Source of the DNA: Cymbomonas tetramitiformis
Taxonomy: Eukaryota > Chlorophyta > Pyramimonadophyceae > Pyramimonadales > Pyramimonadaceae
NCBI GenBank assembly: GCA_001247695.2
Contig: LGRX02035477.1
Coordinates: forward strand, 1-64,000
Reading direction: 5' to 3'
DNA length: 64,000 nt
Both the position numbers and the translations under genes were made by a program. The first letter of the stretch is position 1; every line of letters begins with the position of its first letter. The notes under the pieces are model-generated. The model was not told the DNA's origin. It was given only the letters and a program-made list of their open reading frames with translations, and ran no database searches. Of the stretch, positions 13,063 through 62,283 are shown one piece after another.

Positions 13063-13199
13063 GGCTCGCATAGCTCAGCCCTTATCAGCACCCTAAAATA
13101 TCAAAATTCAAATTAAGTGTTGAATATTCATTACAATATGAGTTACCATGCGAGGTTGCGAAGGCATCGGGACAGAATCTACGAAACTGTCCTATGCCT

Positions 13200-13940
13200 T
13201 TGCCTTTGGGTTTGGGTTCCAACGTACCCAAACCCAAAGATGGCAAACAGCCGAGGGCTTCCCGTGCGTCCTAGCGCACGAAACTTGGCACAAATACTAC
13301 CAAGATGCATATCTTTAGGTTACCTGAAGCTCAAGGCTTCAAGTTACTTGTGCGCGAAACGCGCATTTTGTTTCTAAGGCAGATGTTTTGGGTTTGGGTT
13401 CGAACCCAAACCCAAAGATGCCAAACAGCCGAGGGCTTCCCGTGCGTCATAGAGCACGAAACTTGGCCCAAATACTGCCAAGATACTTATCTTTAAGTTA
13501 CTTGAAGCTCAAGGCTTCAAGTTACTTGTGCGCGAAACGCGCAATTTATTTCTAAGGCAGATGTTTTGGGTTTGGGTTTGGGTTCGAACCCAAACGCAAA
13601 GATGCCAAACAGCCGAGGGCTTCCCGTGCGTCCTAGAGCACGAAACTTGGCACAAATACTGCCAAGGGATATATCTTTAAGTTACCTGAAGCTCAAGGCT
13701 TCAAGTTACTTGTGCGCCCAACGCGCAATTTATTTCTAAGGCAGATGTTTTGGGTTTGGGTTTGGGTTCGAACACAAACCCAAACCCAAAGATGCCAAAC
13801 AGCCGAGGGTTTCCCCTGCGTGTGCATGTGTGTTAATTCATATGAAATATTCCATGGAATACATGTGAATATCCCGCACAAACGGGAAGCGCTCGGCTGT
13901 TTTGTAATTTTAGGGTGCACCCAAAATACAAAACGCATCT
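13200..13940. repeat. ~180-bp tandem repeat with TTTGGG palindromes, ~4 copies
   Basis: The junction GGCAGATGTTTTGGG recurs at about 13379, 13557 and 13740, so the period is 178-183 bp. Each unit has an inverted repeat of variable arm length (GGGTTTGGGTTCGAACCCAAACCC-like), the shared GATGCCAAACAGCCGAGG, and a second inverted repeat CTTGAAGC/GCTTCAAG. The TTTGGG runs differ in number between units, as in replication slippage. Confidence 0.8.
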
Positions 13941-34651: not shown

Positions 34652-37600
34652 TCATTCAAGGGAGGTCAGGGGAAGAACATGTTTTGCTCTTTCAACAGCT
34701 TCTTCTTCAGTGATACCCGTAATTCGGCTAAGAGTGGTTCTGAAAGGGTCATGGATCTCGACCCTAGCATGACCATTAAGGAAGGCGTCACGTCTAATGC
34801 GGGTGTGGTATCTGCACAGCCTGGAAAGCTTCTTGAGGAGAGGCTTCAGTCTTCTCTGGTGAACCCCTATGGTGCTAAGAATCTGTCCAAAGTGCTTCGG
34901 AAGGTATCCCATCAATGTAAGTTCTTTGGGCCACGTTACAGTCCCTGCAAATGGTTTGTTGTCCTTGTTCGTGTAGGACGTGTCACAGTGTCCTCCGTAG
35001 TATTCTGTTGGGTGGGCACTCTGGCGGCTCTCCTGCGAGAGGGGCCACGGGCAGAGGCTGTCGGGGATGACAAGTTTCCTTTCACCCAGGACTTCCTGCC
35101 AGATCTCGGGGTCAACTCCGGTGCAGTTCAGTCTTCTGTCAGTGATCTTCTTCTCAGGAAGGACATTGATGTACCACCTTGCAATCTTTTTCTGCGTCCC
35201 ACTCCAGTCATGAGCAGGAAAGTCTTGGCTCGGAGGGCTATCAATGGCAATAATGCAGACATCTGAGAAATCATCTTTGTAACATCCTCCACCCGGGAGA
35301 ACATATGGGTCATCCCCCGTCCAGTAGCCGTGTGGAATGAAAGGAATGGTGTTGTGAGGAAATCTAAATACCATCTTAAATCCTTTAGCAATCCACTTTT
35401 CTTGATTTTTTGGAGAGAGTGGGAGGATCCAGATGCCTCGAAATCCTGGCACAGTGTTTGCTGCACGATGGCCGAGTTCTAAGGTAGCCATAACCGCCGA
35501 GTTTGAGAATCTTTCCTTCCCGTCAAACGGGGGGTTCCCATAAACATTCCTACCCATATTGGTGATAGGGTCGACATAGGCATCATATGCAAGTCCATCG
35601 AAGCCAATTCTGCCATTTGCACAAAAGGGCCGAAGGGCTGCTCTCATCTGGTCTGAGGGGATACATCTTCTCGAATGAATCCTAGGGTGTGAGTTAAGTG
35701 GGTTACAAAACAGTTCACATCCATTCTCGTTTAGCCCACGGTCGTCAATGATGATGTCAAGAAGGCTTCTTCGAATGGCGTAGCAGTTTTTGGGGTCACC
35801 CGACTCATCTCTACACGCTTTAAGTGCTGTATGAATGTCATGTGCACGCGTGGCATATCGTGAGAGTGGTGACGGAAACTCTTTCTTTGAGAGATAGTGC
35901 CACGACAGGAGTTTCCAAAACTCTTGTTTCCTAGCATATTGGAGTTCAGGGTACACATTATTGCCGCTCTGAGTGTTAACATCCGGAAGTGCTGTCACAG
36001 CAATGGTCCCCTTCTTGGAAGCAGATGGGCGGTACATTCCCGATTCAGGCAATGCTTGGAGGTAGAGCTCCCGCTTCATTTCGTCGCGGAGGTCAGCAAG
36101 TGGAAAAAGTGTTTCGGAGCAAATGTCTATAAAGGAGGAGCCTTTCCCTGGGTTCAACAGCTTAGGTTCCCCTGTAAGCTCGGCCGCCACATGCTTTCTG
36201 AGTTCATCGTCTTGTTCTCCTCTAAGGTATACAAGCGAGTTACCCGGGCCCGGGCATTCCAGTTGAATGTGAGAGAAGTTGCACTTGGTTCCTGTTTGGC
36301 AGTACGGGCAGTCAGGTGAGGCGGTAACACCCAGCTTATGTGAACGTGCGGGTGAAGCTTGAAGGCCCAAAAGTTCTCTGCTTCTGGCCGCTGTATAAGA
36401 TTTAGCTGTGACTTTTGAGATATCCTTGGTGGGAGTAACGTTGTGGTCCTCTAGCATTCTGATATACTTCCCTTGAGACGACATGGCTTTCCATGTATGA
36501 AGGTGAGTAAGGCGTTGGATTCTCCTGATGTGGTTCCGAATATCTCCTGCAACTGGCACTTCCATGTAAAAGAGAGAATAGGGGAGTTCTTCGTATGGGT
36601 CAAATCGGGGAGCGTTTGCCCCTTTTCTGAAAGAGGCCCTCTTTGCTGCTCTATCTACTCTATCGTGAAGTCTATCATTATTATGCCCCCTTATCCATTT
36701 AAGGATGATTCTGCTGTGGTCTTCTCCACTGTAGAAGCCAAGCTCCTCAAGTATTAATCTGACTGCCTGCAGTTCACGTCGGTTTGGTTCCCGGAGCATC
36801 TCACGAGCACTGACAGTTTTCCTATCCTTATTTACCGCCGTGATCGTTGCCATTGAGTCAATAGCATGTATCATTGGAGTCACAGACTTTAGTATGTGGT
36901 CCTTTTGGTCCTCTAAGAGAAGTCGGAGCCCGATGATTTCAGCAGATGTAGAACTTGGTGTTTGAATATCCGCTTTAATCAATCGATCATCAGCAGTAAA
37001 GACACTGCTGGCAGGGATGTTAGCCTTTCTAACAGAAAAGGTGCCTCCCATTTCTTTAAGCAAATAGGCCGCACCACTGCAAGCCGTTTTCTTCCCCGCA
37101 AATAGTGAACCGTCACTTGCCATGTCGTAGTGGTCCTGAGATATGCTATTTCCATCGCTAGGATTTTCATCCTCGTCCGAGTTACTGGGGCAGCTGTAAG
37201 CGCTCTCTTCGTCCGCAGTTCGGTTCCTGAGCTGGACAGATAGAATCTCTTTTTGGCGGTCCGCAATGTAGTCGTAATGGGCTTCCAGATTTTGAACATC
37301 TGATCTCACATTTATAGGGGGAGTGTCATTGTTGTCACATTCAATGGTCTCTCCAGCGGGAAGAAGAATGCAGCCATCCGATGTCATTTGGTATTCGCGG
37401 TCATACTGGCATTGAAGCACTTGACCATTCATAACAAAATTATCACTATCTAAGTGGCCTGGAGTATACTTTAAATAACGCATGGTGTTTGTTTCCGCGT
37501 CAAGTTTTTGAATGCGTATCAGTGTGATGGAAGATTTGTCACCATTGCCTTTCCAGTGAAACTCACTTACATCAGGAATGTCATGAGCATCCCTGTAGCA

Positions 37601-51729: not shown

Positions 51730-51772
51730 AACCAAAGAGAGGGGGAGGTATCCCATGAGTGTAAGAGCTTTG

Positions 51773-51800
51773 AACGATGGAATCGCAGAAATGAGACTGG
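51773..51800 (+). repeat. Left terminal inverted repeat
   Basis: 28 bp, perfect inverted match to 62240-62267. It is followed by two direct CCAGTCTCATT copies (51804-51835) that may be transposase-binding subterminal repeats. Confidence 0.9.
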
Positions 51801-52527
51801 CCCCAGTCTCATTCCAGTCTCATTTTTTGGGGGTCATTTTTTTTGTGGAATTTACACACATTTGATGCACTTAAACAAAAAATAACATTCTCGAATGCAA
51901 ATTCTGAGAAATTTGATGTTTTATCGACGATTTAGTGTGTTTTTCTGCCACGCGAACTCAGAAAAATCACCAAAAATACGATTCTCGACGAAAAATCCCC
52001 AAAACTTTTTCAAGTATGTATTTTCAATATACTCTACATATGCTTGATGCATAACAATAAGAACTCCTTGGGGGAAAAAATGGATTTTTTCAATTTCGAC
52101 CACCCTAAGATGGGGAAATATCATTACGGGGCCAGTCGTATGGGAAATAACCCTGGAAATTGGGTGGTAAAATATATTGCAGGAGTTTAAAGCACAGTTG
52201 TTACGTTATTTTGATGGGTTTGAACTTGGTTACAAGTCCACAATCGCAAGTTGCACACAGAAATAGTTGGATGCATAATTTTGGTGACCGTTTTGGTCAT
52301 TTTACCCCTCAAACCCTGAAAACCCTGAGCGCTAGAATTGTCCATGTGAAGTTAAGCAACATACTCAAGAGTTACACGGCGCGTTGTCACCGTTCTGAGT
52401 TGTTTTTCCTTATATCATACAAAGAAACCGCTCTAGCGAGCTGGGATTGAAACAGTATACACATGGTAGGAAGATCTGTAAAAAGAAGGATGCCATGTTC
52501 AGGGTAAACAAACTTGTAAAAAAGATT
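51801..52527. other. Left subterminal non-coding region of the transposon
   Basis: AT-rich, with AAAATC/GATTTT-type short repeats and a loose inverted correspondence with 61880-62240. A 3' UTR and terminator for the minus-strand genes probably lie here. Confidence 0.45.
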
Positions 52528-53697
52528 CTACTCAGAAAACAGGTTGTCGGCAATAGTCTTTAAAAGCTCTTCCTTTTCAGGACCTGTAGGCATACCGCTC
52601 TCGGGCGGACAGATGCGCTCATCCCAGCAAGTCATCAGCATTTCCGCAGGGTTGAAGGGATGCCACGCCCTGTGCCGAACTCCTCCGCGCCTGAAAGCGT
52701 CTGCGATAAACAGCAAGTCCGTGCTCTTGAAAGTGCGCAGCTTGCGCTTGGAGGCCGGCGAAAGGTTCGCAGCGCGTGGAATCCAGAATTGCCAGTGTAC
52801 CAGGCGTTTCTCCACATCCAAGTCCAAGACCTCAACATAGTGCATGGGAAGTGAAACCTTCCCACGTGCCAGTGGAACCGTAAACCAGCACTCGTCGGCG
52901 GGGTTGTTTTCACCTGCAGCGGTGACAGCAAAGGTTTTTGGAACAGCAGTTATCATTTCGAAGGTGTAGTCTGCCGGGAGGAAACGGGCCACAGCACGTT
53001 GCGCCAACGGCATGTCGTCCTCGTCTGATGAGTCCGACTTCACAGAAACTGCTGGAGCAGTTACGGGCCTTGCTGCTCGCTGAAGTAAAGGCATGTCGTC
53101 ATACGAGTCCGACTCACTCTTCTCGGGCGATTCTGAAATAGACAGCGGCCATTGTTGGCAGAACGTGTCCTGGCCTTCCGTTGAGGAGGGGAAAAGGTGG
53201 GAGACGCTGTCGTAGGGGGAGAACCTCGTGGTCGTTTAGGATCACCTGCTTCCGCCTGCCCAACTTTGCGAGTCTTGACATTGTCTTGGACAGGGGAGGA
53301 AGGAGGGGACGATGGGTATACAAGCTTAATGCCAGCGGCAGCATTAGCGCGCATGCCGGCACCTCTCCCAACTGCAGCTTGACTGTCGGGGCCAGTTGAT
53401 CTCCCCCCACGTCCTTTGCCTCGACCTTTCCCTGCACCTGCTTCAGCAACTGCAGCTTGACTGTCGGGGCCAGTTGTTCTCCCCCCACGTCCCTTGCCTC
53501 GACCTTGACCTCCGTTGTCGTCGGAAACCGGTCTCGCGCTTCCTGCATTCGAACGCTGACCGCGACGCCCCTTTTCCTGATGTTCCTTGCGCGCTGCGGC
53601 GGTCGCATTGAACAAACGTGTGGCCAACTCTGCAGCCAGCCCCGCACCGTCGAGCCCCATATGCTGCAACACCGCCTTAAGCTCGCCCTTATTGTAC
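52528..53697 (-). CDS. SAP-like protein of the transposon (two exons)
   Basis: Exon 53246-53697 (acceptor TTATTATTCAG, donor GAAGCAG/GTGATC) joins exon 52528-53132 (acceptor CTATTTCAG) in matching phase 1. It starts with KGELKAVLQHMGLDGAGLAA followed by ELATRLFNA, the helix-extended-helix pattern of a SAP DNA-binding motif. Then come two near-identical GRGKGRGGR...TGPDSQAAV repeats (basic, RGG-like), an acidic stretch SESDSYDD / SDSSDEDDMPL, and a globular C-terminus (about 160 residues, WFTVPLARGKVSLPMHYVEV). The 5' exon is unknown: it could be spliced from the 685-residue gene directly upstream, but no donor there fits the phase. Probable role: DNA binding in transposition (inference). Confidence 0.6.
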
Positions 53698-53789
53698 CTG
53701 AATAATAAGGAACATAAGGAACCCTTTGGTCAGTCAATAAGCAGCGTGCTTGATGGCGGTTCATATCTTGTACTAATTAAAAGAAGTGA

Positions 53790-55847
53790 CTATTGTAGAA
53801 CTCGCCAGAAAGAAATATCTTCAACCCGACGTGCTTCTTGCTCACATCTTTTCATTATTTTGGGAATGTCCACTGGCAGATCCTTGACCATCACATTTCT
53901 GCCGTCGGCAATGGTCTCCAACTCTGGTTGAGGTTCAGTTGTTGCGGGGTCGGACGCCTCGGTCGTGTTCTGGTGCCAAGCGTTGCTCAGCAGCAACTTC
54001 AAGTCCAAGAGTTGCTGCTGATCAAACTTCGGGCCCTTCCAGGTGTCGTAGTCGGAAGCTTTCTGTGGTAAAGGAAAATACCCACATAGATGTTCTTGTT
54101 GCTCATGAGAGATACGGTCGACACCATGATCACATAGCCGCTGAAACGCATTCAGGGTGTCTGCCTCCTCCTTCGCTGGAAGCGGCTGCACTTCCTGCAA
54201 GGGTGGAGAGCTGTCAATGTCGGGATAGCTGTTCATTACTTCCAGACCTTTGGTCAAGTCGTCGTCTACGCCTTTGGGAAGACAAGGCTTAACATGGTCC
54301 CCCCCTTTGTACTTCATGCGAACTACGCCACGCTCGTCCTTTTGGAATTCCACGTAATGCACATCGCGCACCATACCTCCATATCCCGTGAGGTCCCAGT
54401 TCAGATGCGGCTTCAGCCAATTTTTGAAGTCCAGCTGCTGACCCTGAACTTGTACCAGCTTCAAGAACTTATTTACCGGCCACGATATAAGCCAGCTGAT
54501 ATAGTCTTCGAGTAAGATGAGCCATCGACCTGCTTTTGTAGCATCCTTACCGAATATGTACATCTTCATCAAACCGAACCAGCCATCAACATCGTTGTGG
54601 GTGTGTCCAACCATGAGGCGATGCAACACGAGTTTGTGGTAGATGCCATAATAAACCAGCAGGGCGCAAAAGCCGAACGTGTAGCGATTCCAGTTTTCAG
54701 AGCCTCCGTCAACTTGAAGATGCAACGTCTTCCTGAAGAACCGTTTGCCAGTATGACCCAAAGCCAGGAGCATAAGCAGGTTGGTAAATGATGTCAGCAT
54801 CATGTTCGCGCCTTTGGGTTGGCTCCAAGGAAAACTCAGATTGAAGAGCAACATGCAACCATGTAGTATAGTGAGCTGCAGATGCAAGTTGAAGAAATTC
54901 TGTTTCTTCTCGTTGATGTGTTTCACTTGATGAGGGGCGTGAGGCACCACGGTATTCTTGTTTGCCGCCCCGTCAAGAGCGATGGAGTCGATATCCCCAA
55001 GAGGATCAGCGCTTTCTCTCCTGCGTGCGTCGTAGCAGTTGCGTTGATACTTGTGCGTCTCGCTGTGTGATTCCTTCAGCTTAGTTAGCTCCTTCCAAGC
55101 GTCATGGTCTGGGTCGGAAGCCTGCAACTTAGCCCAACGCGCGTCAAGGTTGTCGCAGATCGAACACATGCCTGACACTTCCACCTTCTTCCGAATACGG
55201 ATGTTCAGTTCCTTCTTGACCAAGTGCCTGCAGTATTTCCGGAAGGTCTTATTCACGACAAGGACCGGTTCCGCCACCAGGCGTCGGTAATTAATATACT
55301 CGACGTCGTAATCCAGCGGCTTGATCTGTAGCGACCCATCGGTTGGCATGTCTTGTGGAAGACCTTTTAACATGTGAACCATAGCCCAGTCCTTAAAAGC
55401 GTCGTAACAATGACCGAACGGCTTTTTGGGGATCTTTTTCTCTTGAAAAACAGTCGTCTTCGGAATCATGCCATCCAATGCTAGGGCAGCCTTCTGGTAC
55501 CGAAAGAATGAAGCACGTGGCAAGCCCCACAAGTTGCGGAAAGTGACAGCGCATACCCTCTTGTCACCGAACTTGAACGGGGTGCTGATACAAGGGATGC
55601 AACGCTCTCCTGTTTTAGCGTCCCGCACGACTGCATCAGCAATAGTGGAGGTCAGCATAGAAGTGAGCTCCGGTTGAGATAGAAGATTCTTATGATTATA
55701 GTTTCTTTCGTAGGAAGCGTAGGCAAACTGACGACCGCAGTTCTCAGAGCATCCGCATGAATATTCAGCCGAGCAAAACGTGGCGATATTGTTTCGCTGT
55801 TTTTTGGCAAGCTGCTTTCTGGAGGGTCTTTTTTTGCGGGACTCCAT
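53790..55847 (-). CDS. Putative DDE-type transposase (DUF7869-like), 685 residues
   Basis: The N-terminus is basic with a Cys-rich patch FCSAEYSCGCSENCGRQF (24-41), followed by a CSIC motif at 228-231, so a zinc-binding region is likely. The core has three conserved acidic blocks: D292 in SIALDGAANKN, D380 in LHLQVDGGSENWN, and D419/D421 in VGHTHNDVDGWFG. Order, hydrophobic strands before the first two Asp, and the G-H-T-H-N-D-x-D-G-x-F-G block match the DUF7869 family known from many eukaryotic TE-like proteins. An RNase H-like DDE fold is inference. The gene is intact, single-exon and divergent from the plus-strand genes across the palindrome region. It is the only protein in the element with a catalytic-looking triad, hence the transposase call. 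Confidence 0.7.
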   Translation of the reverse strand: MESRKKRPSRKQLAKKQRNNIATFCSAEYSCGCSENCGRQFAYASYERNYNHKNLLSQPELTSMLTSTIADAVVRDAKTGERCIPCISTPFKFGDKRVCAVTFRNLWGLPRASFFRYQKAALALDGMIPKTTVFQEKKIPKKPFGHCYDAFKDWAMVHMLKGLPQDMPTDGSLQIKPLDYDVEYINYRRLVAEPVLVVNKTFRKYCRHLVKKELNIRIRKKVEVSGMCSICDNLDARWAKLQASDPDHDAWKELTKLKESHSETHKYQRNCYDARRRESADPLGDIDSIALDGAANKNTVVPHAPHQVKHINEKKQNFFNLHLQLTILHGCMLLFNLSFPWSQPKGANMMLTSFTNLLMLLALGHTGKRFFRKTLHLQVDGGSENWNRYTFGFCALLVYYGIYHKLVLHRLMVGHTHNDVDGWFGLMKMYIFGKDATKAGRWLILLEDYISWLISWPVNKFLKLVQVQGQQLDFKNWLKPHLNWDLTGYGGMVRDVHYVEFQKDERGVVRMKYKGGDHVKPCLPKGVDDDLTKGLEVMNSYPDIDSSPPLQEVQPLPAKEEADTLNAFQRLCDHGVDRISHEQQEHLCGYFPLPQKASDYDTWKGPKFDQQQLLDLKLLLSNAWHQNTTEASDPATTEPQPELETIADGRNVMVKDLPVDIPKIMKRCEQEARRVEDISFWRVLQ

Positions 55848-55929
55848 GTTTTGAGCAGAACAAAAAAATACTTACCTGAGTCGGGTAAACCGCTTTAGGT
55901 GTGTCTGTTTCGTGACATTGGTGACGAAT

Positions 55930-56215
55930 TGTTCAGGAATTCTTCGAGGGCCCCATAGCCCTTGACGAATTCTGAGAATTCGTCACGGGCGCTGGGGCCC
56001 TGCTCGACGAATTCTGAGAATTCGTCGCGCCCGTGACGAATTCTGAGAATTCGTCACAATTCGTCACGGGTCCTCGACGAATTCTCAGAATTCGTGACGA
56101 ATTCTGAGAATTCGTCGAGCGCCCGTGACGAATTCTGAGAATTCGTCGAGCAGGGCCCCAGCGCCCCAGCGCCCCTCGACGAATTCTGAGAATTCGTCGA
56201 GAATTTTGGTAGATT
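55930..56215. promoter_or_regulatory. Array of GACGAATTCT-N-AGAATTCGTC palindromes between divergent genes
   Basis: At least six full copies of a palindrome with 10-bp arms GACGAATTCT and AGAATTCGTC around one central base, plus half-sites, occur in under 300 bp. GC-rich spacers CGCCCGTG and GGCCCCAGCGCC lie between them. The array sits upstream of both the 685-residue gene (start 55847) and the plus-strand gene at 56354. It could be a transposase/regulator binding array, an insulator-like stem cluster or an origin. It is not a coding repeat. Confidence 0.75.
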
Positions 56216-56237
56216 GTTCCCACCTTGACACAATCTT

Positions 56238-56317
56238 GCGGTTTTTCGTCACCGGTGCCCAGGTAGTTGTTTAACAATTTATTGTCTGGGTACCGGTGAC
56301 GAAAAACCGCAAGATTT
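56238..56317. repeat. Long inverted repeat (cruciform) before the plus-strand genes
   Basis: Arms of about 28 bp: CTTGCGGTTTTTCGTCACCG... at the left and its inverse ...CGGTGACGAAAAACCGCAAG at the right, with a ~24-bp AT-rich loop. It ends 37 bp before the ATG at 56354. The arms contain CGTCACCGGT, related to the GTCACGGG spacers of the neighbouring array. Confidence 0.8.
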
Positions 56318-56353
56318 TACTCTATATTCTGCACTTCAAATTTCTCCACAATT

Positions 56354-56776
56354 ATGACTTCCGCACAAGAACTGTTTACTAAGGCCCTTCATGACTTGGA
56401 AAAGGTTTTAGAAGCTCAGCTCGAAATCGAGGGCAATTGTATCGTGCCTTTTGACAATGCGGGACAAGTGTGCGAAGTAATTCTAGCTTGGGATAACTAT
56501 TCGTTAAACGGCCCCTTGTGGAAGCACATTCAAGACAATAAGGTTTTCTCAGAAGACTCAGCTTCAAGGATAATACAAAAAATGGAGAAATATTGTACTG
56601 GAGATCATAGTTCTAGTGGTAATTCTTCTCCCAACGACAGCCCCGAAAAAAAAGGACCCAATACTTCGGTTCCAGCAGAAGGATCACCTGCGCCGCTAAA
56701 CCTCGCAGAAGCCATGGAAGCAGCAAAGGAATTGTTGCCGGAAAATTTGGAGCAGGACGGCAACCCCTTGGCCTAG
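56354..56776 (+). CDS. 140-residue accessory protein of the transposon, unknown
   Basis: Small acidic protein. Residues 1-80 look helical and globular (MTSAQELFTKALHDLEKVLE, then NAGQVCEVILAWDNYSLNGP). Residues 85-115 are Ser/Pro/Gly-rich linker. A final helix LAEAMEAAKELLPENLEQDG follows. It is the first plus-strand gene after the palindrome region and the divergent partner of the transposase gene. No family recognised; it could be a regulator or an N-terminal exon of a larger product. Confidence 0.5.
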   Translation: MTSAQELFTKALHDLEKVLEAQLEIEGNCIVPFDNAGQVCEVILAWDNYSLNGPLWKHIQDNKVFSEDSASRIIQKMEKYCTGDHSSSGNSSPNDSPEKKGPNTSVPAEGSPAPLNLAEAMEAAKELLPENLEQDGNPLA

Positions 56777-57090
56777 CTGGAAAAAGTGCTTGTCGGCGGC
56801 TACCTTGCAGCCGCCGAGAAATCAGGGATTTGGCCTAAAAAATAAGGGATTTGGCCCGAAGGGCCTGAAAGGTCCGGCGCAAGGGCGATTTAAGGGCCCG
56901 TAGGGCTGTTGCGGAACGGAGATTTTAAGGGCCCGGAGGGCCTAGTAAGATAATTTCAGGGGTGTAAATTGTAAAGTGATTTCAAGGGCCTGAACTCCCG
57001 AGATTAGGCCCTGTAAGGTGATTTCAGGGGCCCGGAGGGCAAAGTAAGGTATAAATTGCAAGTGACGAAGAGACAGTTAATAGTAACGGG
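56777..57090. other. Spacer with GGGCCCGGAGGGC repeats
   Basis: GATTTAAGGGCCCGTAGGGC, GATTTTAAGGGCCCGGAGGG and GATTTCAGGGGCCCGGAGGG recur about every 60-90 bp. Non-coding; possibly the 3' UTR of the 140-residue gene. Confidence 0.5.
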
Positions 57091-57093
57091 GCA

Positions 57094-57366
57094 GTGGTGG
57101 AGAGCCAAGGATCGTGCATCGATAAGCATGCAGCAAGCGAGAGACACTTGACTCAGGATGGTCTCATAATGGAGAGTGTGGTGCATTGGAATGCACCAGC
57201 TCCCCGTCGCTCAGATAAGTTTGTGCGGGACGCCCTGAATCATCATTTTGGTGGACCGACGAAGTGGCATTTCACAACCTCAGATATCCGCGCTAAGGTT
57301 CACACCGTGTCAGAAGTTATTGACCGACTTTTGAAGGAAGATAGCAAATTCTCATTTATGGAGTGA
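57094..57366 (+). CDS. Possible 90-residue protein
   Basis: Short frame with ordinary composition (RRSDKFVRDALNHHFGGPTK, then VSEVIDRLLKEDSKFSF). The start could also be the internal Met at 57169. Between supported transposon genes and on the same strand, but too short to be sure. It may be an exon. Confidence 0.35.
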   Translation: MVESQGSCIDKHAASERHLTQDGLIMESVVHWNAPAPRRSDKFVRDALNHHFGGPTKWHFTTSDIRAKVHTVSEVIDRLLKEDSKFSFME

Positions 57367-57582
57367 AACAATGTACCTTATGATTTCATGGTATCTTATA
57401 TTTTATTGATGATGATACTAGTATTTGGTATGAAGGAGAATATTGACAATATTCCTCATTTGTAGTGATTGTTAAATTTCCTATTAAGAATTGAGGGATT
57501 TTTTGGAAGGAATATTCTTTTTTTTTCAAGGGTTCAAAAAAAACCCTAAAACCCTAAAAATTTTCAAAGGCATTTTCAGTAA

Positions 57583-58416
57583 ATGGCCACTGCCCGCAGC
57601 GGCCAACATTTGCACTTTTTCCAACTAGGCCCCTTGGATCAGTTACAGTTCCACGCTGAAATAGATGCGTTCAGCGTGGACCTTGTTTCGCTGGGTCTGA
57701 TCACCTGCCAGGATCTGGCAAAGGTCACGGCGGATGGGTGGGAGTACGTGCTTTTGGGGCAGTGCTTGGACCAGGGCGGTCTGAAGGATGGGCACGGGAA
57801 GCCTGTAATCATCTATGCGGACTTCGGACTGGATCATGCATGTGGGAAAGAGCTCCTGCTGAAATGCTTGGAGGACGGGTCCGGATATAATGTTTTCGAA
57901 AGCAAAATATACAAGGCGGACGAAAAAATCATCGTCAGCAATATGCTGACGATGTGCGAGAGGCGGTACGGACCCCAACCCGAGGAGGAGGACACACGCG
58001 TCATCGTGGACGCACCCCATGTAAGTCAGCAACTCGACGAGGATGACGACGTCGCCTTGGAGCAGCCTAGGTGGAAGGCAAGGGCGGGCAGAAAGCTGTT
58101 TCTGCTTGAGTTTGAGGAGGTCAACAGCCTGGGGTTGCCTCTGTTAGTTGGGCTGGCATGGCTCAAACAAATCTGGACGCCTCCTGTGTCGGGGCATGCG
58201 GTTGCGGATCACGTGGTGATCTTCAACCTACGCAAACCAGGCAACCCAGGTGTCTTTCCCACATTTGGGGATGCAATTGCGTACCTGACCTGCCAGCACA
58301 GGGACGTGAAGGACATCACCTTCGTGTTCCGTGAGGATAAAGATGTTCGAGCAGCGGTCCACTTTAAAGTCGTACGGGGTCCAAGTGCCTATTACCCGCA
58401 GCTTACGGTGGCTTAA
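57583..58416 (+). CDS. 277-residue accessory protein of the transposon, unknown
   Basis: Intact single-exon frame starting just after an AT-rich, pyrimidine-ending stretch (GGCATTTTCAGTAAATGG). Composition is globular (QLQFHAEIDAFSVDLVSLGL, KPVIIYADFGLDHACGKELL). Residues about 125-165 are an acidic loop (PEEEDTRVIV, LDEDDDVALE). No catalytic motif or family recognised. The last codons overlap the first GGTGGCTTAAGCCACC palindrome at 58408. Conservation of length without introns suggests a real gene. Confidence 0.6.
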   Translation: MATARSGQHLHFFQLGPLDQLQFHAEIDAFSVDLVSLGLITCQDLAKVTADGWEYVLLGQCLDQGGLKDGHGKPVIIYADFGLDHACGKELLLKCLEDGSGYNVFESKIYKADEKIIVSNMLTMCERRYGPQPEEEDTRVIVDAPHVSQQLDEDDDVALEQPRWKARAGRKLFLLEFEEVNSLGLPLLVGLAWLKQIWTPPVSGHAVADHVVIFNLRKPGNPGVFPTFGDAIAYLTCQHRDVKDITFVFREDKDVRAAVHFKVVRGPSAYYPQLTVA

Positions 58417-59025
58417 GCCACCTTAACTTGAAGGGCTCATTGGGGCTTCCTCGGCGGTGCTTTCAAAATTTGGAGACCTATGTCGTCAAGATCTTGAGCT
58501 GCTCTTTTTGCAGTGTCTTATCAAAAGTTTGATCTGAGTTCATCTTGACCCTCAAAATCACGGTTGAAGTAGGGTGGCTATTTCCCAATTTTTCTTAAGA
58601 TGGCTTAAGCCACCTTAAGCCAATTAGCTCACGGGGGCTTCCTCGAAGGCGCTTTTCAAAATTTGGAGACCCATGATGTCAAGATCTCGAGCTGCTCTTT
58701 CTGCAGTGTGTTGCCAAAAGTTTGATCCGAGGTCATCTTGACCCTCAAAATCTCGGTTGAAGTAGCATGGGTATGCAAAAACCGGAAAAAATCGCTCAAA
58801 ATTCACTAAATGTTGCACCCTCTTGGATACTTCCCAAAATTGCTCACCGGGAACTTGGGCTCGCCGAATAGTGCATATAGTGTCTAAAAGAAGACATTGT
58901 CGCCGTCATTTTGAGCTTAAAAAATCTAGTTTCCGGCACCGATAGCTCCCGCAATAATCGAAAACGTTAAGGTGGCTTAAGCCACCCTAAATCGCTGTTA
59001 GGGTGGCTTAAGCCACCCGAAGGGT
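58405..59025. repeat. GGTGGCTTAAGCCACC palindromes and a ~190-bp tandem duplication
   Basis: The 16-bp palindrome or a one-base variant occurs near 58408, 58600, 58973 and 59002. Between the first two, a ~190-bp unit (from GGGCTTCCTCGG to GGTTGAAGTAG) is present twice, at about 58440-58580 and 58628-58768, diverged. The spacing and exact symmetry suggest a DNA-binding site inside the element. No gene. Confidence 0.7.
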
Positions 59026-59071
59026 AATAGCCACAAGTCCGGATGACCCGGAATATCTTTTATTCGAGGAG

Positions 59072-61546
59072 ATGTCGCAGGAAGAGGGTACAAACGCCAA
59101 ACAGAACGTCAAGAACGCTCGAACGGAGTTGGTGCCGCGTTTGGTGAACGGCAAACAGCCGGTAATAAGCGACCGGCCTGCCTTTGAAAACCACACTGTT
59201 TGCTTTCATTTGGCCTGTAACTTTTCTTTATTCCGAAATGGTGGCTTCTATAGGTGTACGTCTACCTCGAGGCCCAGTTCACCCGGGAGAAGAAACTTAC
59301 GTATCGCATGCCCTTGGTACAGGGCATGCAAGTAGAAACAGTGATGGACTTGGGGAACGAGGCTGGTGTTGATCTAGACGGCGCCACAATCCGGTTCGTT
59401 GGCGCCAACTTGAGCCAAGGCAGCTCGGGTCAGTGGCATGCCACTTTGATGAGCGAGAAGCATTCCGGGAACACGGCCGAATACGTCATGTTTCAAACCC
59501 CTCTCCTTCAAAGCCGACATGTCACGCTCAAGCGGGAGGAGCACTTTTGCGACAGGTACCCGTTTCTTCAGCTGCAGAGCAACAAGGTCTACGCCCACGA
59601 CATCCGCCTGCCCGAGTATGCAGACGGCGACCTCAGCACGTTACCCACCAAGCTGCCATTTTCCGATGGGGAAGTAGCGGAGGAGGCCCAGAGGTATCAA
59701 GGCTTTCAGCAGGTATTGGCTTTTGCCTGGGAAAAGATCGCGGCCGAGGAGCAGAGGCGCTCGGAGCAGCCAGGTGGGGCGAGGACAGCGACAAAGGTTG
59801 GCGACACCAACTACTGGACTCTCGCCTCCTCCAACTTCACAGCGGGGCTCACCTTCCGTTTGGTGGGAAAGGTGACGGCATATGTCATGTCAAGTGGTAA
59901 GGGACCGATGCAAGGCATGATGGACCTAGCGGACAGTACTCCACACGACCACAAGCGGAAAGTACCCGTGCTGGTGCGCAACCATGCTGGTGAAGGTAGC
60001 AAGAACTCGAAGGGGAATCAGAAAGCAGTTTTAAAGGCCAAGGGGAAGGGTGCAAGCGGAGCTGTTGGCGAGGCCAAGGGGAAGGGTGCAAGCGGAGCTG
60101 TTGGCGATGATTTGGGCAGTGGCACAAGGAAACGAAAGCTGTCATCGCCACCAGAGCCAACAGCAGATACCAAAAGGAAACGGACTTCCTCTCGTCGGCC
60201 GCCGGTGACCTTACGGCAAAAACAGGACCTTACGGACAGCGAAAAGACCAACGAGCCTGAGTTGCACCATGAAGAAGTACTGCACGGTTCCTTTGGGGTG
60301 CAAAACGAAGAGCAGGAGCCTTCTCAGAGCATGGTTCAAGAAAGCCAGTCTGAGGAAGAGGATGAGCTCCCAAAGCGGCGAGACAGACCTCTTTCCAAAA
60401 AGGAGAAGGTCCAGGACATGGTACTTATGGCCCCCTTTTCCCTATTTTGTTTTGTTGATCAAGTTTTGACCAGACTGTTGACTGACAAACCTGCACATGC
60501 TCACAGGACGCCAAGATGAAGAAGTACATGGCGGACCTGTTCTTGAGGCTGACGTCCGAAAGCGTGCGGAACGCTAATGCCAGGAACACCGACTCCGACG
60601 CCGACAGACAAAACCTTGAAGAGCTGAAACGTGCTCGTGACCAGTCCGAGATTGAGGTTGCCAACCTTGCCAAGGAAAACGAGCGCCTTCAGAAGGCTCT
60701 GGAGGAGTCGAAGTTGGAGGGTAAGAAGGCCTTGGAGGAGGAGGGGAAGCAAGCAAGGCTTCGGGAGCAGGAATTGCGCAAAGACCAGGACGAGCGCAAC
60801 CAGGAGGCCAAGGAGCTCCAAGCAGCGCTGTTGCAAAGGCAAGATGGCATTGAGAACAAGCACTTGCAGCATCAGGTGCAGCTGACGGACAAACACGTCG
60901 TTGCTCAGCAGCAACTCTCCGAGGCTTCCAACAAGACGATGGACACGTTCAAAAACGCCATCAGCGAACAGTCACAGAAAGCCGTCCAGGATCTGAAGGA
61001 GCAGATGGCCATCGAACGGGAAAACCATAGGAACAGCGAGAAGTACACCCAGGAGATCGCCATGCAGCTCATCTCGGTAAGGTTTCCTTCTTCTTTGGAA
61101 TATAAAGTTTTGTATTGTTTTTTTTTAAATATATATGTCCCTCGCAGTTCCGAAACCTGGCACACTACTGACCATCTCTAATGGGGCTTTCGCAGGCTTT
61201 GATGCCCGGAGGCCAAGCTGGCCCTCTCCGAGGTCTTCAGGGCTCATCGCAGCAGCCGCTGCCCGTGGCGTTGGACGCCCAAGGTACACCAGGAATACCT
61301 GTGGGACAGCCAAGGCTGGTACCTGACAGGCAAAGAGCGGCCGGGGTAGAGGCACAGAAGCTCGTCATTGCTTTGAAGGAGCAGAGCACACCCGCCGCCC
61401 TCGAGGCAAGCATCAGGTTGGAGGAGCTTAAAGACCTTGCTTCCTTCCAGGGGGAGTCGGGCAGCACCGCCGACGCACTGTATGCACAGGCGGTGGTGCG
61501 GATGTACAGCGCTCTTATGGGGGAAGTACCAGCGCCCATCTCTTAG
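59072..61546 (+). CDS. ~725-residue spliced coiled-coil protein of the transposon
   Basis: Four exons with matching phase 0 junctions: 59072-59161 (donor CCG/GTAATA), 59254-60420 (acceptor TTCTATAG, donor ATG/GTACTT), 60507-61076 (acceptor GCTCACAG, donor TCG/GTAAGG), 61196-61546 (acceptor CTTTCGCAG). N-terminal ~210 residues are globular (VYVYLEAQFTREKKLTYRMP). Then come two tandem AKGKGASGAVG repeats and a bipartite nuclear-localisation-like region (TRKRKLSS...DTKRKRTSSRR), an acidic/Gln stretch, a long coiled coil of about 150 residues in exon 3 (LEELKRARDQSEIEVANLAK, KENERLQKALEESKLEGKKA) and a Gly/Pro-rich, then helical C-terminus. A nuclear, oligomerising DNA-associated role is inferred. 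No family recognised. Confidence 0.68.
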
Positions 61547-62239
61547 GCTAGCCTGCACTCAAACCCTGAGTAATGCTCGTGCATGTAAATAGTAATTGTG
61601 AATATGCTTCAATCCCACGTATTGTGGGTGGTGTTTTTTTGGTTCTTGACCATATTTGAAACTTGTGAACAGTAGGGATACTTTGCATTTTCATCATTCA
61701 TCACAGTTCAAGGCATGACTTGCACTCCCGCTTCAAACCCTAAGCCATTTCAGCTGAACTGGCTAAAAATGAGCCATCCCGCAGCTGTGGAGCACTGCCC
61801 TATGAAGTTTTTTTATGTCTTTTGTTTTGAACATTCTTAATTAAGACAAGTTTGAGCCTACAACACCGTTATCCCGTGTTATAGTCAATTTTCACTTATT
61901 TTCAGTGTGTCGCGGCTTCACGTGACACAAAAATACCCCAAAAAACATTCTAAGCTAGGAGTATGCATGGTCTTTTCATAAATTTTCAACTTACCTTGTT
62001 ATTATATCATATTTTCAACTTCAAAATATGTGAGTATCGCAATAATCTTGTCTTTTAAACAAATTTCAGATATCCCAACTTTTCAGCCTTCGTGGAGTGT
62101 TTTTGGCTGTTTTTCGGCTGTAAAATCAAAATTTTTTAACAAAGTTCGTTTTTTATCATGGATACCACATCTATATGGCCCCTGGAACCAAAATTCCGCA
62201 AAAAAATACCCTGTCTCATTTGAGTCTCATTCGCCGGTT
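61547..62239. other. Right subterminal non-coding region of the transposon
   Basis: AT-rich 3' flank of the coiled-coil gene. It contains GTCTCATTTGAGTCTCATT near 62212, the subterminal CAGTCTCATT family also seen at the left end. Confidence 0.5.
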
Positions 62240-62267
62240 CCAGTCTCATTTCTGCGATTCCATCGTT
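62240..62267 (-). repeat. Right terminal inverted repeat
   Basis: Perfect 28-bp inverted copy of 51773-51800, followed by the TTTG duplication at 62268. Confidence 0.9.
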
Positions 62268-62283
62268 TTTGGGCCATTTCACG

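Follow-up and report, generated by a model that had tools for sequence, protein, structure and literature searches.

The window analysed here is a 64,000-nucleotide stretch of the green alga Cymbomonas tetramitiformis (contig LGRX02035477.1, positions 1 to 64,000), and its positions 51773-62267 are a copy of a DNA transposon that is present many times in the genome and has terminal inverted repeats (TIRs) and 4-bp target site duplications (TSDs). The larger part of the first gene of this element (gene 1) encodes a protein of the Pfam family DUF7869, which is very probably the transposase: a predicted enzyme of the three-aspartate (DDD) type that would cut the ends of the element and join them to the target at C-NNNN-G. 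In the 852-Mb genome that was searched for the ends and the end patterns, the window is part of contig C25288.

The 28-bp repeats at the two ends of the element are 100% complementary and TTTG is found directly outside both of them (Table 1). Within the window the TIR gave only 2 matches at ≤3 mismatches and 0 in 100 shuffles. Genome-wide, at ≤1 mismatch, the TIR pattern was detected 224 times in forward and 221 times in reverse orientation (445 ends), and the reversed control gave 0 and 0. The edges of the element were mapped with a 700-bp left-end query (best 40 of 1,394 candidates scored) and a 650-bp right-end query (best 40 of 296 candidates scored), both of which give lower bounds. All 39 other scored copies at the left end start at query positions 66-74 (first TIR base at 74), and all 39 at the right end stop at positions 618-627 (last TIR base at 618); these matches are 97-100% identical. 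In the left-end set of 34 loci (L006, L009, L011 and L013 being excluded as repeats of other loci), 33 open with AACGA and one, L017, opens with TGAGATGG. These 34 loci have 33 distinct left flanks, one flank being common to L020 and L048, and the right-end loci have distinct flanks in 30 of 30 cases.

A perfect 4-bp duplication was present in all six copies that were read at both flanks: TTTG in the window, TTAC in C4942, CCAT in C15661, TTTG in C6232, AAAT in C6931 and TAGG in C7291. From their coordinates these copies are about 9.3 to 11.7 kb long. The same ends are found at unrelated sites and the duplication is constant at 4 bp (6/6 here and 3/3 in the sister family described below), which is the pattern of a TIR transposon. 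The subterminal motif CAGTCTCATT occurs exactly at 51790 (minus strand), 51804, 51815 and 62241, and with one mismatch at 62211 and 62222. Its 9 occurrences in the window at one mismatch are not clearly above chance (5 of 100 shuffles reach 9); the left-end motifs are present in 34/34 left ends read, in three of them with one base changed. The original prediction, made from the letters of the window, had described perfect 28-bp TIRs, the TTTG duplication and subterminal repeats, and had anticipated additional copies that share these ends and have 4-bp duplications. All of this was borne out.

The other left-end copies are in varying states. C3206 has left and right ends, its contig beginning at the left end, and the right ends of C6931 and C7291 were located elsewhere than at the place first predicted. 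In C15906, C19709, C2287 and C2065 the likeness to the window copy ends after 1.6-3.9 kb and no right TIR was found within 12-13 kb of the left end. No element sequence was found at the predicted right-end place in C16032, C23273, C9989, C1667, C9929, C19393, C24169, C20369 and C7918. In other left-end copies the contig stops before the right end. Inward-facing end pairs of the same family, spaced at 6.0, 6.2 and 4.0 kb, are present on C2733, C3409 and C5177 as judged from positions only.

The flanks point to a preferred target. Of the 33 left flanks, 22 have C at position -5 (p 5.5e-7 relative to 25%), and of the 30 right flanks, 21 have G at position +5. We concluded that the preferred target is the palindrome C-NNNN-G, the four middle bases of which are duplicated; such a mirror-symmetric target is what paired strand transfer would predict. 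When the element and one TTTG are removed, 35 bp across the join match window positions 34899-34933 at 86% (E 6.7e-4), a comparison that rests on one short match, and the reading frame ...TVxWPKxLTLMGYLP continues through the restored join. The target had been described as a long interspersed nuclear element (LINE) that is restored upon removal. Its restoration is upheld by the match and the open frame, but its identity as a LINE is not, the single flank frame examined for this having no Pfam match.

A sister family in the same genome shares several of these features. One of its proteins, P0007, is 45% identical to the window DUF7869 protein over 81%. The best 49 of 3,878 candidates in a genome search for this family were scored, and an open frame of 1,129-1,163 residues was found at 27 of the 49 places; the other 22 have frames of 708-1,118 or 1,287 residues, and a few of them contain stops. 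The sister gene 1 pieces that were checked (e.g., C22204, C3220, C5203 and C9558) lie in one frame. The sister end ...GTGTCTCATTTTTGCGATATGGTCGTT was derived by comparing two copies beyond the 3' side of the gene. Because both copies continue with ATAT, the boundary was placed according to its resemblance to the TIR of the window copy, and it is borne out by the 4-bp duplications of this family. The two TIRs are identical at 21 of 28 positions, a level that 0 of 200,000 shuffles reach, and the sister ends occur 405 + 401 times (806) genome-wide at ≤2 mismatches, with a control of 0 + 0. Three inward-facing sister pairs, picked from the places listed, were read: a pair of 11,236 bp on C2228 with the DUF7869 gene inside and the duplication CTCA, a pair of 4,472 bp (C2266:8169-12640) with the duplication ACAT, and a pair of 1,366 bp (C386:49376-50741), too short for the gene, with the duplication ACCT. 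All three have perfect 4-bp duplications and all three lie in C-NNNN-G; two more inward-facing pairs are listed on C418 and C1024. The ends, the duplication length and the target rule therefore travel with DUF7869 across a deep split. Short derivative elements had been foreseen, and the 1,366-bp sister element with the same ends may be one.

The DUF7869 match lies in a 685-residue open frame listed at 55847-53793 on the minus strand (PF25273, E 6.8e-21, 75.2 bits with the cut-off at 26), and no other Pfam family matched this frame at E ≤ 1. Over 81% of its length the protein shares 96% identity with C. tetramitiformis CYMTET_57076 (P0001), in which the 685-residue, SAP-like and C-terminal parts read as one protein. 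Judged by sequence comparison, gene 1 is thus a single gene that joins these three frames. Its intron has a GC donor in the window and a GT donor in 7/7 other copies showing the site (a chance match in C2287 was dropped from this count, as C2287 is without that region), and a GC-AG intron as a normal feature of the gene was ruled out on these grounds. Near 53130 the window copy differs by one base in length from 8/8 other copies, which breaks the frame at the passage from the SAP-like frame into a 235-residue frame. A separate SAP-like protein, as originally proposed, was ruled out: the SAP-like frame is the continuation of the 685-residue frame past the intron, and its SAP match is weak (E 0.067, below the cut-off). 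The proposed 685-residue protein itself stands as far as its frame, its DUF7869 match and its conserved aspartates are concerned, but it is only exon 1 of a longer gene that is frame-broken here.

Relatives were also sought in other collections. A search of the PDB by sequence gave nothing below E 0.2, the 685-residue frame had no match in PHROGs, phage records gave no match, and the 20 pattern matches in IMG/VR included none that is related. A scan of 84,980 prokaryote genomes with a pattern from the DUF7869 alignment returned one relative, L051, on a 4.5-kb contig filed as a Bacteroidetes metagenome-assembled genome (MAG); its DUF7869 gene lies in split, eukaryote-like frames, and the contig is probably a contaminant.

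We compared the DUF7869 protein with its relatives at the level of single residues and of predicted structure. D292 is kept in 11/11, D380 in 12/12, and D419 and D421 in 13/13 aligned proteins (window protein included), and a profile search with A1 gave the same 12 proteins; distant DUF7869 proteins retain the invariant aspartates. In the predicted secondary structure D292 lies in the first strand, D380 ends the fourth, and D421 starts the helix after the fifth. The model of residues 225-530 has the order strand-strand-strand-helix-strand-helix-strand-helix plus one short extra helix, and the order of this predicted core is that of RNase H-like transposases, with moderate fold scores. All 50 matches that VIA lists for the 225-530 model are retroviral integrases, DDE transposases or Argonaute/PIWI proteins, groups which we take to be RNase H-like. 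With the whole model, the top Foldseek match is IS21 IstA (E 4.4e-3). In the structure prediction proposed as a check, D292, D380 and D421 thus lie in those predicted secondary-structure elements that hold them in RNase H-like transposases, and the DUF7869 protein is the best transposase candidate of the element, as had been suggested for the 685-residue frame. The reverse assignment, in which the protein of the second gene (gene 2) is the transposase and DUF7869 is accessory, appears very improbable. Gene 2 has no Pfam match within cut-off, so its role is not fixed by family, and it is present in all copies read there (window, C4942, C20369 and a part of C6232). However, the invariant aspartates and the predicted core belong to DUF7869 and the aspartates are kept by its distant relatives, and the relatives of gene 2 found among the best 7,998 candidates, which were scored, are three Cymbomonas proteins and one ENA sequence.

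Gene 2 is divergent from gene 1 and, as far as copies and gene models can be compared, is also one gene, made of the 139-, 277- and ~725-residue frames and split in the window by two nested insertions. Both insertions are absent from the other two element copies read at these places, C4942 and C20369. C4942 has a single frame of 504 codons, free of stops, that takes in the 139- and 277-residue frames together with the piece after them; further downstream its gene 2 is damaged, exon 2 containing a stop and exon 3 a change of frame. In C20369 the first piece is joined to the first half of the second, followed by a frame change. The gene model CYMTET_57078 (P0013), numbered two from CYMTET_57076 and located on a contig equal in length to the one that carries CYMTET_57076, joins the 139 and 277 parts to the following exon. 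By the sum of its exons the gene 2 protein would have about 1,130 residues.

The original prediction had seen an intact element with five separate proteins, among them intact 140-, 277- and ~725-residue products. The separate frames do exist as listed in the window, but in other copies and in the models CYMTET_57076 and CYMTET_57078 they are parts of two genes, and the breaks between the frames are the intron, the frame shift and the two nested insertions. Five separate proteins are therefore hardly credible, and the gene set is better given as two divergent genes, both damaged in the window copy. With two nested insertions and the frame shift in gene 1 the window copy is not intact. The features of the element are collected in Table 1.

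Table 1. Features of the transposon copy in the window (positions of the 64,000-nucleotide stretch).
Feature	Position	Strand	Basis
Left target site duplication TTTG	51769..51772	.	6/6 two-flank copies with perfect 4-bp duplication
Left TIR, 28 bp	51773..51800	+	39/39 other scored copies begin ≤8 bp from first base
Pair of subterminal CAGTCTCATT direct repeats, in opposite orientation to the motif within the TIR	51804..51824	+	34/34 left ends
Gene 1 exon 2, SAP-like and C-terminal parts	52528..53697	-	Frame broken here; CYMTET_57076 (P0001) reads whole
Gene 1 intron, 108 bp	53698..53805	-	Donor GC here, GT in 7/7 other copies showing the site
Gene 1 exon 1, DUF7869 transposase candidate, 685-residue frame; D292, D380, D419/D421	53806..55847	-	Pfam, alignment, model
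Region between the divergent genes	55938..56320	.	7 palindrome copies around GACGAATTCTGAGAATTCGTC, one 31-bp hairpin
Gene 2 exon 1, first piece (139/140-residue frame)	56354..56771	+	Copy comparison, gene model
Nested insertion 1 (56772-57629)	56764..57637	.	8-bp CCCCTTGG duplication, TIR CCTAG[CT]TGGAAAAAGTGC
Gene 2 exon 1, second piece (main part of 277-residue frame)	57638..58385	+	Copy comparison
Nested insertion 2 (58386-59033)	58382..59037	.	4-bp CAAG duplication, TIR TG[GC]CTATTACCC
Gene 2 exon 1, third piece	59038..59161	+	Copy comparison
Gene 2 exon 2	59254..60420	+	Exon 1 junction visible in CYMTET_57078 (P0013)
Gene 2 exon 3, putatively coiled-coil-like by eye	60507..61076	+	GT-AG sites, open frame only
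Gene 2 exon 4 with stop	61196..61546	+	GT-AG sites, open frame only
Right subterminal repeats CTGTCTCATT and GAGTCTCATT	62211..62231	+	Motif search
Right TIR, 28 bp	62240..62267	-	39/39 other scored copies end ≤9 bp from edge base
Right target site duplication TTTG	62268..62271	.	Read in window

Between the two start codons lies a region rich in palindromes, which may serve both genes as a promoter or regulatory region. Its near-perfect GACGAATTCTGAGAATTCGTC palindromes span 55938-56202 in the window, and the array of C4942 looks longer. Nested insertion 1, which interrupts gene 2, carries a 103-residue frame (57055-57366); nested insertion 2 resembles a miniature inverted-repeat transposable element (MITE) and has 648 bp with GTGGCTTAAGCCAC palindromes. 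The C4942 copy holds a clear nested insertion. The insertion inside its gene 1 has the ends CACTACATTCTG...AGAATGTAGTG, and a repeat at window positions 13118-13912 shares up to 95% identity with a part of the insertion in that gene (L018+L019).

In the proposed mechanism the transposase would pair the two ends, cleave there, and join both target strands 4 bp apart at C-NNNN-G, with D292, D380 and D421 (or D419) as the predicted metal ligands of the RNase H-like core. Its N-terminal cysteine and helix-turn-helix-like parts may bind the TIR and the subterminal GTCTCATT repeats, and its SAP-like tail may bind DNA. For the protein of gene 2, of about 1,130 residues, an accessory role in end binding or in regulation is proposed. 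Elements of this kind usually move by cut-and-paste, which is suggested here by analogy. A copy-out/paste-in or other replicative route is unlikely; it would be compatible with the large numbers of ends and with the fold likeness to integrases and IS21 IstA, but the combination of TIRs, a short TSD of constant length and short elements that share the ends (1,366 bp) is the one usually seen in cut-and-paste elements. Due to the frame shift in gene 1 and the two nested insertions in gene 2, the window copy would likely need the proteins of other copies to move.

If the assignment of the transposase is true, DUF7869, a family so far without a function, gains a testable role as the transposase of elements whose ends, duplication and target rule are precisely defined. 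With their 445 and 806 end matches, the two families in this genome are natural material for a transposition assay. The long-read assembly of Cymbomonas is described as 914 Mb with 43.6% unclassified repeats (PMC10675990), part of which the finding would help to classify. It would also show whether DUF7869 genes elsewhere are mobile DNA. None of 5.39 million open-access papers mentions DUF7869, and the ten open-access papers listed as naming Cymbomonas and transpos- include none about the window element, as judged by their listing.

How the element should be classified is a separate question. The chances are about even that DUF7869 founds an undescribed superfamily of eukaryotic DDD transposons. 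That superfamily would have GTCTCATT...TCGTT-type ends, a 4-bp duplication, the palindromic target C-NNNN-G and a divergent second gene, and its transposase would be a protein of about 1,100 residues with a cysteine-rich N-terminus, a helix-turn-helix-like part and a SAP-like tail. If this is true, the "hypothetical" DUF7869 proteins of other eukaryotes would be transposases or genes derived from them. A serious possibility, to which we give somewhat less than even chances, is that the element belongs to Sola as a deep, Sola1-like branch that has gone unrecognised. It would then be a new family and not a new superfamily, DUF7869 would be the name under which Pfam lists a Sola-type transposase, and the mechanism would be unchanged. 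Compared by description only, Sola fits: it is given a DDD transposase, a 4-bp TSD, TIRs of 11-1124 bp and a size of mostly 2-9 kb, with some >15 kb (PMC10741241), and the 4-bp duplication, predicted DDD residues, TIR and element size found here are within these ranges. Giant Sola1 elements are described in the brown alga Ectocarpus, and one family of 21.5 kb, likewise a large algal element, carries an accessory gene on the strand opposite to the transposase (PMC12477816), which fits the two divergent genes. Against Sola, AT-rich duplications of the AWWT type are described for Sola2 in two amoebozoans (PMC3627910), unlike TTTG, TTAC, CCAT, TTTG and TAGG here; AAAT fits, and AWWT-like duplications may not define all Sola2. 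Sola is also reported from bacteria (PMC10741241), whereas DUF7869 gave the one eukaryote-like relative in 84,980 prokaryote genomes, which is a weak point against it. The C-NNNN-G target is a feature of the window element that sets it apart from Sola.

Pfam has transposase models for known superfamilies, and the 685-residue frame had no Pfam transposase match at E ≤ 1 for hAT, MULE, PIF/Harbinger, Tc1/mariner, piggyBac, CACTA or KDZ. The Cymbomonas genome is described as holding many integrated viruses (PMC10675990); a giant-virus or Polinton-like origin was ruled out, since the frames of the element gave no Pfam match to a viral gene. Ginger/IS481EU and IS21 IstA, the latter being the top Foldseek match, share the predicted RNase H-like core, but the window element is without an integrase-type Pfam match at E ≤ 1. 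Nor did the Pfam matches of its frames include an ATPase partner. Zisupton has 8-bp duplications (PMC12730594), in contrast to the 4-bp duplications here. KDZ, EnSpm and other giant algal transposons resemble the window element in being >9 kb and in having an accessory gene and nested insertions, which most giant transposon families in Ectocarpus are described as carrying (PMC12477816); the Pfam models of these groups, however, did not match the window element at E ≤ 1. A further known entity close to the element is PF25273 itself. The gene 1 protein belongs to it well above the cut-off, and this Pfam family without assigned function is here tied to a transposon with defined ends.
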